Assembly: GCA_029260215.1 (NCBI GenBank)
Contig: JAJDDQ010000039.1
Span: 1-48,312, forward strand
DNA: 48,312 nt
Reading direction: 5' to 3'
DNA from: Phycisphaerae bacterium
Lineage (GTDB): Bacteria; Planctomycetota; Phycisphaerae; UBA1845
The notes under the pieces are model-generated. The model saw nothing but the letters and a program-made list of their open reading frames with translations, ran no database searches and was not told the origin of the DNA. Made by a program: the position numbers and the translations under genes. How positions within the stretch are numbered: the first letter of the stretch is position 1; each line of letters opens with the position of its first letter. Shown here one piece after another: positions 38,084-48,312 of the stretch.

Positions 38084-38560
38084 CTACCAGGCGAAGTGGG
38101 CAAAAGCCTTGTTCGCGTCAGCCATGCGGTGGACGTTTTCGCGCGTCTGCATGGCACCTCCCTCGCCACGAAACGCATCGCCGATTTCCTGTGCAAGCAC
38201 GGTGGCTGTCCCCTTGCCCTTTTTGTCGCGGATGGCTTTGATCATCCAGCGGATGGCCAGCGTCTGGCGACGCTTTTTGTTGACCTGCATGGGAACCTGG
38301 TAGTTGGAGCCGCCGACGCGCTTGGAACGCACCTGGATGTTGGGCTTGCAGTTTTCGACGGCGGTTTCGAACACCTCGATCGGCGGCGTATCCTTGATAC
38401 GCTTGGCGATGATGTCCATCGCGTCGTAAAATACGCGCTCAGCCGCACCCTTCTTGCCGTCGTACATGAGGCAGTTGATGAACTTGCTGACCACTTTGCT
38501 GCCGAACTTCGGATCAGGCCGGAGCTGGGCCGCCGACATGGTGAAACGCTTAAATGCCAT
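38084..38560 (-). CDS. rpsG: 30S ribosomal protein S7
   Basis: This 158-residue protein starts at ATG 38560. It has [20 protein letters not shown] and the conserved [20 protein letters not shown], ending in [17 protein letters not shown]. It organises the 30S head and lines the E-site. Unusually, bioY lies between it and rpsL. A 219-bp gap separates it from fusA. Confidence 0.97.
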
Positions 38561-38585: not shown

Positions 38586-39149
38586 TCAGTTCAAAGGCCG
38601 CCGACCCGCGCGAACAACGCGGATGCCAGCCACCAACATCAATACTTCAACCACAGCCTTGGGCACGAACGGCAGCACGCCGACGGTCAGCGCAGCCGAC
38701 CACGAGGTTCCATGCAGACCCACGAGCCAAAGCGTGCCGAGGGCGAGCACCGCAGCCGTGCCAGCCAGACCAGCCAAAGACATTCCAACAAACCCGCGGC
38801 GATTGCGGGAGAGAATCGAAACCATTCCAGCCGCCACGACGAAGCCGATCAGATACCCGCCCGTCACACCCGCGAGTCCGAACGAACCCAGAGCGAAAAG
38901 CGGAGCGCCAGCTGAGCCGAGCGTGAGATAACCCAACACCGCGAGAACAGCCGACACCGGCGACAGGCAAAAGCCCGCCAGCAGGACGGCCGGCAACTGC
39001 AGCGTCATCGGCACGGGCGTGTACGGCAACGGTATCCGCACCTGGGCGGCGATACCGATCAACAACACAAAGCCCGCCACCCCCAAGAGCCGTCGTGCGA
39101 TGGTCGCCTGAGCGACCGGGCTTGAATTTATCGTTTGACCGATATGCAT
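38586..39149 (-). CDS. bioY: Biotin transporter BioY (S component)
   Basis: This 187-residue integral membrane protein starts at ATG 39149. The family signature is visible: [20 protein letters not shown] then [20 protein letters not shown], then [20 protein letters not shown]. Six hydrophobic helices are present, and the late part has [18 protein letters not shown]. BioY captures biotin either alone or with an ECF energising module (BioMN). No such module is in the window. It sits inside the str operon between rpsL and rpsG, 18 bp after rpsL and 25 bp before rpsG, so it should be co-transcribed with ribosomal genes. Confidence 0.93.
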
Positions 39150-39167
39150 CAATTTGCTCGGAAACCG

Positions 39168-39560
39168 CTATTTCTTGCGACGCTTAACGCCGTACTTGCT
39201 TCGCCCCTTGTTGCGGAGGTTGCCTTCCTTGTCCTTTTCCACGCCGGCACAGTCGAGGGCACCGCGGACGATGTGGTAGCGAACACCCGGAAGATCCCGG
39301 ACACGACCGCCGCGCACCAGCACGATGGAGTGCTCTTGCAGGTTGTGGTCCACGCCGCCGATGTAGGCCGTCACCTCTTTGCCGTTGGTCAAACGGACGC
39401 GAGCGACTTTGCGCAGGGCGGAGTTGGGCTTCTTCGGGGTCTGTGTCTTCACGATCAGGCAGACGCCCCGCCGCTGCGGACTCTTTTCCAAGTCACGCAC
39501 CTTGGACTTCGGAGAAGTCTGCGAGCGTTTCCGCCTTACGAGTTGGTTTGTCGTCGGCAT
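39168..39560 (-). CDS. rpsL: 30S ribosomal protein S12
   Basis: This 130-residue decoding-site protein starts at ATG 39560. It has [40 protein letters not shown] and the loop [20 protein letters not shown]. Numbering matches Escherichia coli through this region: Lys43 is kept, but position 88 is Arg (CGG codon at 39297-39299) where most bacteria have Lys. First gene of the str operon; 151 bp separate it from rpoC. Confidence 0.97.
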
Positions 39561-39711: not shown

Positions 39712-44235
<4,524 letters not shown>

Positions 44236-44322
44236 GAGGGTTATTGCCTCTCAAACCAGAATTTCGCCGAACACACGCAGCACGCCGGACCATCGCGGCG
44301 GGCTGCACCGTCACCCACTCAA

Positions 44323-44802
44323 TCACGTACCAGCCGAAACCGGAACGGCGGCCGCAACTTCAAGCCGCAACGCGACCATCCCACCGACCTTCTTGAATCC
44401 AAGCTCCTCGCAGAAGTCCACTTCCGTGCCGTAGGCCAACACGTGTACCTCCTCCGCGCCGAACTCCTCAATCGCCCTAATCACGCGCGTAGCCATCTCA
44501 CGCGCGATGCCCGCTCGATCGTGCTCGATCCGCCCATCACGCCGAGTAACCGCGCCAGGCCCCTGAAGGGCAGGGTCCAGCTTGCACTCAGCCAGATGAC
44601 CGCGAACACCGTCGCTCACCCCGCGTGCAATGCCGACAAGCCGGCCGTCCTCCGATCGGGCAGTCACAAAACAAAAACTGCGATCGATCATGCGGGCCAG
44701 TTTCTCCATGCACGATGTCGTCTGATGACCACACCGCTCATAGAAAGCCGCTAATTCGGCCACATCGACATCGTCCGTCGTCTCGTAATGAATATCCGCC
44801 AT
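44323..44802 (-). CDS. GNAT-family acetyltransferase between rpoB and rpoC
   Basis: This 159-residue protein starts at ATG 44802, seven bases after GGAG. GNAT traits are the mid-strand RLVGIARGVSDG, strand LAECKLDPALQ, the acetyl-CoA motif A helix DRAGIAREMATRVIRAIEEF, and motif B VDFCEELGFKKVGGM. The stretch between strand and helix (GPGAVTRRDGRIEHD) is longer than usual. The spacing (37 bp after rpoB, 87 bp before rpoC) implies co-transcription with RNA polymerase subunits. Substrate is unknown; acetylation of an RNA polymerase or ribosomal protein is possible but only a guess. Confidence 0.82.
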   Translation of the reverse strand: MADIHYETTDDVDVAELAAFYERCGHQTTSCMEKLARMIDRSFCFVTARSEDGRLVGIARGVSDGVRGHLAECKLDPALQGPGAVTRRDGRIEHDRAGIAREMATRVIRAIEEFGAEEVHVLAYGTEVDFCEELGFKKVGGMVALRLEVAAAVPVSAGT

Positions 44803-44839
44803 AGGGTCGCTCCATGCGCGCAACAGAGTCTGTTCCCGA

Positions 44840-47800
44840 TCAGATAACGCGCTTCTTTTCCAACTGAATGTTCAGGCACAGGCCGCGTATTTCGTTGCAC
44901 AACACGTCGAAAGAAACGGGCGTTCCCGCTTCGAGCGTGTTGGTACCCTTAACCATTGACTCGTACAGCTTGGTTCGGCCTTCGACGTCGTCACTCTTGA
45001 CCGTCAGAAGTTCCTGCAAAGTGTAGGCTGCCCCGTACGCCTCCAAACCCCACACTTCCATCTCACCAAAACGCTGACCGCCCGTCCGTGCTTTGCCGCC
45101 CAGCGGCTGCTGCGTGATGAGGCTGTAAGGGCCTGTAGCGCGAGCGTGAATCTTGTCGTCAACGAGGTGATGCAGTTTCAGCATGTAGATGTAGCCCACC
45201 ATCACGCCCTGATCGAGCGGCTCGCCGGTGCGACCATCGTACAAAGTTACCTTGCCGCCGATCGGCATGTCGGCAAACAACTTGTAGTCCCCGCCATTAC
45301 GCGCACCGATGGTCGCAGGATCCTTGCTCAACTCTTTGACGCGCTCGTTGGCCTCTCTTATCGCATTGTGGATTTCGTGTTCTTTCGCTCCGTCGAACAC
45401 CGGCGTGACCGCCTGGAACCCGCAAATCTTCGCGGCCCAGCCCAAGTAAGTTTCCAAAATCTGGCCGACGTTCATACGCGAGGGAACGCCCAGCGGATTC
45501 AGAAGAATATCCACCGGCGTGCCGTCCTCCAGGAACGGAACGTCTTCTTCACGCAGGATGCGGGCGATGACGCCCTTGTTGCCGTGGCGACCAGCCATCT
45601 TGTCGCCCACCGAAAGCTGCCGCTTGGTGGCGATCCAGACTTTGACCATTTCCAGCACACCCGACGGAAGCTCATCCCCGCGCTTCATGTGCGAGACCTT
45701 GCGATCGCTTTCCTCCATCAGATCCCGAATCCGAGGCCAATACTTGTCCACAACTTTCAAGGCGGCTTCCCGCTGCGCTGCCGGCTTGACCCATCTCAGG
45801 TCGCGGGCGTCCACCTGAGCTTTGAATCCTTCGATCTGCTCGACGATGACCGTGTCCATGTCGCTCTTGCCGACGATCTGCTTCGTCGTGCTGTCGACCA
45901 TCTCCACACCCACAACGCCGTTGATCTCCTTACACATCTGCTTGAACACGGCGATCACCTGCGCGGTCATGTCGGCTGCGTAGGCGTCGGCCTCTTTGTC
46001 CATCAGTTTCTTCTCGTCGTCCGTCTTGTGGACACGACGCGCGAAACGGCGGGTCTCGATCACGATTCCTTGTTCGCCGGCGGGCAGCTCCAGCGAATCG
46101 TTCTTCACATCTTCGCCCGCCCGCCCGAAAATAGCGTGCAACAACTTCTCTTCAGGACTCAATTCACTCTTGGATTTCGGGCTGACCTTGCCCACCAGAA
46201 TATCACTCGAGCGCACGGTTGTGCCGACCTGCACGACTCCGTTCTCGTCAAGGTTCGCCAAAGCGCGTTCGCTCACATTCGGAATGTCATTGGTGAATTC
46301 CTCGCGACCCAGTTTCGTCTCGCGAATCTCAACGTCGTATTCGTCGATGTGAATACTGGTGAACGTATCGTCCTTCACCAGCCGCTCGTTGATGATGATC
46401 GCGTCTTCGAAGTTGTAGCCGTCGTAGGTCATGAACGCGACGAGAATATTCTTCCCCAACGCCAATTCACCTTGGTGCGTGGCAGCGCCGTCCGCGATGA
46501 TCTGCCCCGCCTTGACACGATCGCCGGTCTTGACGATCGGCTTTTGATTGAGACAGGTGCGCTCATTAAGCCCCTGGAATTTGCGCAGGATATACTCATC
46601 GGTGTCTTCAATGACAATGCGCGTCGCGTCAACGTAGGTGATTTTGCCGTCCTGACGCGCTTTGACCACCATGCCGCTGTTGGCAGCCACCGCAAGCTCA
46701 ACGCCGGTGGCCACCACCGGCGGGTCCAGCTTCAAAAGCGGGACAGCCTGCCGCTGCATGTTCGAACCCATCAGGGCACGGTTGGCGTCGTCATGTTCCA
46801 AGAACGGAATCAACGCAGCCGACACGCCCACCGTCTGTTTCGGCGACATGTCAACATAGGACACTTCCGAACTGTCCGCCTGGCTCAACTCACCATGCGC
46901 ACGCACGATGATGGACCCGTCGAGCAGACGATCCTTGTTCCCGATGATGGCTTCGGGCGGCGCGAGAATGTAACGCATCTCCTCGTCAGCACGAAGGTAG
47001 GTCACGTTCGGAGCGACCTTCCCAGCCTTGACCTTGCGGTACGGCGTGACCAGGAATCCGTAATCGTCCACCGAACTGTAAATGCTCAAAGACGCGATCA
47101 GGCCAATGTTCGTGCCTTCCGGCGTCTCGATCGGGCAGATTCGACCGTAATGGCTGATATGCACGTCGCGCACTTCAAAACCAGCACGCTTGCGATTCAA
47201 ACCACCCGGACCAAGCGCGGACAACCGGCGCTCATGCGTCAACTGCGACAGCGGATTCGTCTGGTCGACTACCTGCGAAAGCTCGCTCCGGCCAAAGAAG
47301 AAATCGATACTCGAACTGATCGACTTGGTATTGATCAACTCCGCAATGCGCCCGATCTGTTCGGGATCCTTCATGCTCACCCGTTCCTGCACGGTGCGAC
47401 GCAATTTCAGGAATCCCTTGCGAATCTCGTCGGCGGCCAACTCGTCGATGGTGCGCAGGCGACGATTGCCCAGGTGATCGATATCGTCCACTTCAAAGCG
47501 TGATTCGCCCGTACGCAGTTGAAGAACGTAACGCACGCAGGCGATCACATCCTCAACACGCAACACCATGATCGAATCGTCAACCGTCGTCTCCAGCTTC
47601 CGACTCAAGCGGAATCGGCCTACCTTGCCGAGGCGGTAGCGATTGTCGTCGAAGAATTTCTCGTGAATCAGCTTCTTGGCTTTGTCGAGCTGCGGCGGAT
47701 TCCCCGGGCGAAGCCGGCCGTAAATCTTCAGAACCGCCTCTTCGTAAGACGAAGTGCTGTCCTCCGCCAGCGTGTTCAGAATCAACGGATCAGTAACGTT

Positions 47801-48312
47801 CACAATAACCTGAACGTCCTTGATCGAAGACTCCTGAATACGCGCCACACCCTCACCAAGCTGACAACCAGCCTTGACCAGTTCGTCGCCAGATTCCTCG
47901 TCAACGATGGTCGTGACGCTGTACATTTCCGGCTTCAGTTGCGCCGACTTGACCTTCTTCGTCTGATGGAACGCCTTCACAATAGCTTCGTCCGAGCCAT
48001 AGGCAGGGTCCAACGCGCGAATAAACGTGGTGGCAGCTATCTTGCTCGACTGATCGATCCGAACAGCCAGCAAATCCTTCTTCGTAACGTTGACTTCAAT
48101 CCAACTGCCGCGCTCGGGAATGATGCGGCAGGCGTGGAAGGCGCGATCCCCATCGTCCTGATCCTTGACGAAATCGACACCGGGGCTTCGATGAAGCTGG
48201 GAAACGATCACGCGCTCAGCCCCGTTGATGATGAACTCGCCGCCGCCGATCATAATCGGCAACTCACCGATGTAGATCAGATCCTCCTGGATTTCGTCCG
48301 AATCCTTGCGAA
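44840..48312 (-). CDS. rpoB: RNA polymerase subunit beta (partial, N-terminus beyond the window)
   Basis: About 1156 C-terminal residues are present and the reading frame is open to the window edge; roughly the first 100-150 residues are missing. Motifs visible in order are [20 protein letters not shown], the rifampicin region ([20 protein letters not shown]), [36 protein letters not shown], and [20 protein letters not shown] near the C-terminus, ending [11 protein letters not shown]. In the rifampicin cluster Val-Val replaces the usual Phe-Met (E. coli 514-515) and Glu replaces Lys527. The GNAT gene follows. Confidence 0.98.

Follow-up and report, generated by a model that had tools for sequence, protein, structure and literature searches.

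The DNA analyzed here, hereafter the window, is a stretch of 48,312 nucleotides from a Phycisphaerae bacterium (GenBank assembly GCA_029260215.1, contig JAJDDQ010000039.1). On its minus strand, at 44323..44802, lies a gene encoding a GNAT-fold protein of 159 amino acids. The frame starts with an ATG at 44802 and runs without interruption to a stop codon ending at 44323. The gene is located between rpoB (44840..48310, minus strand), the last 1156 residues of which are inside the window, and rpoC (39712..44235, minus strand). A Shine-Dalgarno-like GGAG, as read from the sequence, is found 7 nt ahead of the ATG (44810..44813, minus strand). An earlier note on this DNA had described an intact GNAT gene with its own ribosome binding site between rpoB and rpoC. 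Both points were borne out, the former by the open reading frame, the Pfam matches and the AlphaFold2 model, and the latter by the GGAG motif.

Read in the direction of the operon, the order is rpoB, 37 nt, the GNAT gene, 87 nt, rpoC, rpsL (S12; 39168..39560, minus strand), bioY, which encodes a biotin transporter component (38586..39152, minus strand), rpsG (S7; 38084..38560, minus strand) and fusA. On the upstream side of rpoB are rplL, rplJ, rplA, rplK, nusG, secE and tuf, the names of which were given by reading the translations. The arrangement with bioY between rpsL and rpsG is shared by many relatives in the window's family and not by others. The GC3 value of the GNAT gene was 0.656 versus 0.73 for rpoB/rpoC, and its total G+C was 0.606 versus 0.57-0.58. 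No sigma-70-like promoter and no intrinsic terminator was found in 44100-45000, a result that is weakly informative because shuffled sequences yielded just 0.3 and 0.8, respectively. In the whole window, Rfam at gathering thresholds gave only a tRNA (356-430).

The window protein matched the Pfam families Acetyltransf_10 (E 1.5e-6) and Acetyltransf_1 (E 2.4e-4), both exceeding the cut-offs. These matches flank residues 85-93, that is, Acetyltransf_1 covers residues 33-84 and Acetyltransf_10 covers residues 94-140. The match is split because the protein has 15 extra residues in comparison with the uninterrupted loop of rice SNAT1 in the profile alignment. For the family, thinning at about 90% identity reduced the 130 sequences extracted to 75; the alignment leaves out L011/L044 (one genome), L004 and L095. 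Among 74 aligned members, Acetyltransf_1 was matched in 66 and Acetyltransf_10 in 64 at E 0.01. The AlphaFold2 model of the window protein showed the GNAT fold (pLDDT 89.1, pTM 0.84). Thus, by its fold and its significant profile matches, the protein belongs to the GNAT superfamily. The insert itself is poorly determined in the model (mean pLDDT 63 for residues 81-90), and the next helix begins at residue 99.

The structural neighbours of the model are solved GNATs. The top match was rice SNAT1, the plant plastid GNAT also called serotonin N-acetyltransferase 1 (PDB 7dai, 7daj, 7dak and 6k5m), followed by SP0256 (Z 15.9) and SA2161 (Z 15.7). Compared with 7dai, the window protein gave a Z score of 17.2 and an rmsd of 2.3 over 134 residues with 25% identity, and a profile match to rice SNAT1 extends across the second half of the window protein. 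However, rice SNAT1 has an unbroken QGQGLG loop and Tyr at the general-acid position, whereas the family at rpoB-rpoC has the 15-residue insert and Cys, Leu or Val. The best single-sequence match in the PDB was DR_1678 of Deinococcus radiodurans (3s6f, "putative acetyltransferase"; E 5.5e-9 over the N-terminal half), which gave a structural Z score of 12.8. Its profile alignment breaks around the insert-bearing stretch, and it has YERLG where the window protein has CEELG.

RimI and other bacterial protein acetyltransferases share the superfamily with this protein, and theirs is a plausible type of activity for it. According to passages in PMC8556138, RimI, YiaC and YjaB need a Tyr for activity, and the family at rpoB-rpoC is without that Tyr. 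When the window protein was searched against NCBIfam at E up to 1, the RimI model TIGR01575 was not matched, so that the protein was not assigned to RimI, and no match was above a curated cut-off. Rim models were also absent from the matches of the 74 members at E up to 0.01. Among the NCBIfam families listed for the 74 members, the commonest was a general GNAT model (27/74).

The 15-residue insert in the P-loop covers about residues 83-97 and is followed by G98 (codons 83-98; 44509..44556, minus strand). Its length is fixed, since all 74 aligned members have the pattern Q-x17-[GNR]-x-A. Within the insert, T86, R91, E93, H94 and D95 are invariant in 74/74. Outside it, K74, Q80, A100, T126, E127 and D129 are invariant in the same 74 sequences, and G98 is kept in 72. 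The helix side of the loop reads D-x-x-[GNR]-x-A. That is, Asp occupies the position three before the loop Gly in every member, and Gln or Arg never does. According to passages in PMC7339202, the P-loop consensus of GNATs is [QR]-x-x-G-x-[GA], and a variant that begins with Gly has also been reported. None of the 74 members showed this consensus where helix 3 begins. The bare pattern occurred elsewhere in 40/74, the first match being in strand 3 (residues 52-62) in 33, overlapping the QGPA that precedes the insert in 4 and near the C-terminus in 3. In weak relatives from outside the order, the bare pattern was present in 30/30, and in 28 of these it was away from strand 3, as placed by eye.

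The general-acid position, in the stretch ahead of L-G-F, is codon 131 (44410..44412, minus strand), which was located by the alignment and is Cys in the window. Among the 74 members it was Cys in 65, Leu in 8 and Val in 1, and the catalytic Tyr of the RimI/YiaC type was found in none. As a control, the acid-position motif was sought in the 30 weak relatives, but the search pattern located it in just 7 (Tyr 5, Trp 1, Phe 1), and this control is weak. Human Gcn5 and PCAF have Phe at this position, as stated in passages of PMC8556138, so the missing Tyr does not prove that the protein is inactive. Neither is catalysis assured, given the missing acid Tyr and the low confidence of the model in the insert. 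The family is thus an order-specific GNAT-fold subfamily with an altered cofactor loop and not a typical GNAT.

A profile of 21 family members was searched against 114 genomes of the window's order, which are uncultured Phycisphaerae of the Planctomycetota. Matches were obtained in 88 of them. In 87 the match was near-full-length (189-268 bits); one of these, in G460, lacks its start because the contig ends there. The remaining match, in G007, is a fragment that adjoins rpoC where the contig stops, and it is outside the 87. Taking one locus per genome, 85 of the 87 copies have rpoB before them and rpoC after them, all three genes sharing a strand, and the other two (G498 and G460) lie at contig ends where only rpoC is visible. 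The earlier note had proposed conservation at this site in relatives as a check on its idea, and had regarded presence in one genome only as speaking against it; the gene proved to be conserved at the site throughout most of the order. The median gaps around the gene in the 87 genomes were 65 and 124 nt, with maxima of 989 and 727. In the match of G014, a TAG lies within the matched stretch. Two genomes of the order gave a second match, which in G501 was a contig-end fragment of 29 residues (40.9 bits) and in G013 was a generic GNAT (20.8 bits).

Outside the order, no comparable gene was found in 392 genomes of the phylum and 298 of the class, for each of which the first 9 or 12 candidates were scored. 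The class sample gave 63 matches, 54 of them from the window's order. The best match from another order reached about 36 bits, and such matches, among the first 9 or 12 candidates per genome, were ordinary GNATs that mostly matched in part. In a separate collection of named loci, 72/74 had both rpoB and rpoC as neighbours, and the other two were at contig ends. These relatives are titled as metagenome assemblies of Phycisphaerae or Planctomycetota, except for L039 (Alphaproteobacteria), L080 (Deltaproteobacteria) and L040 (bacterium), the titles of which are presumably wrong. In the RpoB/RpoC tree, the window clusters with L002 and L031.

Twenty-six genomes of the order had no match, and the junction was checked in 21 of them (G474-G478 were left out). 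In 14 of the 21, rpoB and rpoC are adjacent without the gene and 72-286 nt apart; the assemblies of the other 7 yielded no rpoC. The 14 empty junctions contained no gene remnant, the top profile score being 2.6 bits. In genus g25, the gene is missing in G024 and present in G488 and G489. G024 appears to have lost it by a clean deletion, because the stretch just before its rpoC still resembles that of L099.

We then compared these absences with descent. The RpoB/RpoC tree contained 75 rows with the gene, 14 without it and 14 of the outgroup; it was a quick tree with many weak branches, in which rows sharing the RpoC start were merged and from which L010, L041, L043 and L080 (short) and L047 and L095 (without RpoB) were omitted. 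On this tree, presence and absence required 8 changes, of which at least 4 were forced by well-supported branches. L162 (f3), a member of the order without the gene, was placed among the outgroup. Within f5, only the row L070 (G058) has the gene, which it could have retained or regained. We infer that the simplest history is a single early gain followed by several losses. The distances of the GNAT protein followed those of RpoB/RpoC (Mantel r 0.79 over 74 rows, a value that none of 999 permutations reached). A single branch of the GNAT tree sets off each of the clades f1, f2 and f4, and 2 changes were required for f8.

The dN/dS values were 0.00-0.18 in 14/15 pairs and 0.41 in the pair L068/L082; the pairs partly overlap, and dS is close to saturation in several. 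The GNAT gene is clearly, for the most part, under purifying selection, and in most pairs the constraint on it is below that on rpoB/rpoC. A recent insertion or passenger is ruled out by the order-wide presence of the gene, its RpoB/RpoC-like phylogeny and the mostly purifying selection, and to this extent the passive passenger suggested by the earlier note was set aside. Mobile or horizontally spread cargo was likewise not indicated, since tblastn at 1e-5 gave no match in 72,556 plasmid or 50,697 phage records and the GNAT distances track those of RpoB/RpoC.

To which of its neighbours the gene is tied can be considered from genomes in which the operon is broken. In 7 of 23 gene-bearing stretches examined, rplL was not found on the rpoB side, about 5 kb or more being visible beyond rpoB, and rpoB-GNAT-rpoC was intact. 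These seven are L251 (f1), L254-L255 (f8) and L256-L259 (f4). In L256-L259, rpsL is also missing after rpoC; L251 and L254-L255 keep rpsL. L239 and L240 show no rplL either, but they are on short contigs. The evidence leans towards a tie to the polymerase genes rather than to L7/L12 or S12. However, a gene nested there can leave only by deletion, and the constraint on rpoB-rpoC thus accounts for part of the retention of its position.

We also looked for residues of the polymerase that track the gene. In neither RpoB (13 sequences without the gene and 67 with it) nor RpoC (14 and 68) did any column track it closely, and the top frequency difference was 0.62. The only Lys column that was commoner with the gene, among those with differences over 0.5, was RpoB 171 in window numbering, where 40 of the 67 gene-bearing sequences have K (difference 0.52) but the window has Asn. 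The test is crude, because sequences rather than events were counted, and the set with the gene includes named loci from another collection. In B. subtilis, RpoB and RpoC have been found acetylated, according to passages in PMC4476798. With regard to RimI, 0/114 genomes of the order had a match above the TIGR01575 cut-off and all had weaker ones, and 8/14 control genomes exceeded the cut-off. The replacement of RimI by this protein is unsupported, since above-cut-off RimI was lacking in 114/114 genomes whether the gene was present or not.

A limited search of the open-access literature gave no description of such a gene between rpoB and rpoC. What is new here is a subfamily of the GNAT fold in which the cofactor loop has been rebuilt and the place in the genome is fixed. 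How the chemistry of the superfamily may change is illustrated by a GNAT that lacks the acid Tyr and whose cofactor loop holds a highly conserved insert of fixed length. Where acetyl-CoA has been connected with bacterial RNA polymerase, the connection is usually ascribed to acetyl phosphate or to broad-range acetyltransferases. A dedicated gene nested in rpoB-rpoC throughout most of an order, with its invariant insert, provides one concrete protein with which such a link can be tested.

The earlier note had also raised the idea of an enzyme that modifies a polymerase or ribosomal subunit. Our tentative preference is that the protein may modify RNA polymerase, or a factor bound to the polymerase, or bind it as a ligand, in either case depending on acetyl-CoA. 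The GNAT protein would be made together with the beta and beta-prime subunits, and it would still bind acetyl-CoA through the rebuilt loop E93-H94-D95-x-x-G98-I-A100. Such binding is suggested because G98, A100 and the helix are kept and because the insert is invariant and not decayed. The residues of the insert might then contribute to chemistry or regulation, and the protein would act on RNA polymerase or a polymerase-bound factor, which is the weakest step. This action might be the acetylation of an amino group with catalytic groups supplied by the insert, or binding as a ligand in a manner dependent on acetyl-CoA. The function would be accessory, because several lineages manage without the gene. 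The fuller proposal, namely a lineage-specific, operon-encoded partner or enzyme of RNA polymerase that responds to acetyl-CoA and in which the invariant T/R/E/H/D replace the usual catalytic groups of GNATs, we regard as unlikely. If this proposal held, the protein would connect central carbon status with transcription.

Because no residue of RpoB or RpoC convincingly tracks the gene, it is equally conceivable that the protein is an active GNAT with a substrate unrelated to transcription, such as a small molecule, a tRNA or another protein. The site would then give high constitutive expression, and nesting would retain the gene. The nearest solved fold is named after a small amine substrate, which agrees with this explanation; Arabidopsis GNAT2/NSI, a serotonin acetyltransferase, also has Lys and N-terminal protein acetyltransferase activities, according to passages in PMC7339202. 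The clean absence of the gene from the 14 empty junctions points in the same direction as the residue comparison. So do Phycisphaerae of other orders, in which 5/20 loci had an rpoB-rpoC gap of over 400 nt containing unrelated frames; these 20 were drawn from the best-scoring 30 matches and are not a random draw, and none of their junctions gave a GNAT match. That is, the rpoB-rpoC junction takes up genes, so that an extra gene here is unremarkable in the class, and one gene fixed across most of an order is the remarkable part. Against an unrelated substrate, those other insertions look sporadic, with differing families in each genome, whereas the GNAT gene is order-wide and, save for the contig-end fragment in G501, was found only at rpoB-rpoC.

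It is improbable that the protein is a pseudoenzyme that has lost acetyl-CoA binding or catalysis and retains the fold as a small binding protein. In all 74 members the general-acid Tyr is replaced and Asp takes the place of Gln or Arg three residues ahead of the loop Gly, which would fit such a loss, but the invariant K74, Q80, A100, T126, E127 and D129, together with the residues of the insert, resemble a rebuilt active site more than decay. A RimI/RimJ/RimL-like N-acetyltransferase of ribosomal proteins, with neighbouring products such as L7/L12 and S12 as its targets, would suit the position of rplL upstream of rpoB and rpsL downstream of rpoC in the window genome and the lack of above-cut-off RimI in the order, but it is very unlikely, as L256-L259 keep the gene with neither rplL nor rpsL alongside, two f8 genomes and one f1 genome keep it and rpsL without rplL, no Rim model was among the NCBIfam matches at the E limits given above, and the genomes without the gene likewise have no above-cut-off RimI.

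The frames found in the junctions of the other orders were of several kinds. L210 has a PD-(D/E)XK family protein, L220 has a 23S rRNA-intervening-sequence protein, and L221 has a BrnT-like toxin with a small partner frame; L214 and L216 have further frames in gaps of more than 400 nt. Small frames also accompany the GNAT gene itself in some loci. In L044, which is from the same genome as L250, the GNAT gene is flanked on both sides by small frames, all of them between rpoB and rpoC. Upstream are a HEPN-domain frame and a frame of roughly 90 amino acids, and the downstream frames look similar by eye. These flanking frames look like toxin-antitoxin-type pairs. In L059, the stretch from rpoB to the GNAT gene holds a HEPN-like frame, slightly below the Pfam cut-off, and a frame of roughly 90 amino acids resembling those of L044. 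Finally, L204 and L207 (family f112) have between rpoB and rpoC a membrane-like frame of roughly 70 amino acids with a GFEV stretch in common, as judged by eye, which is possibly a second conserved resident of the junction.
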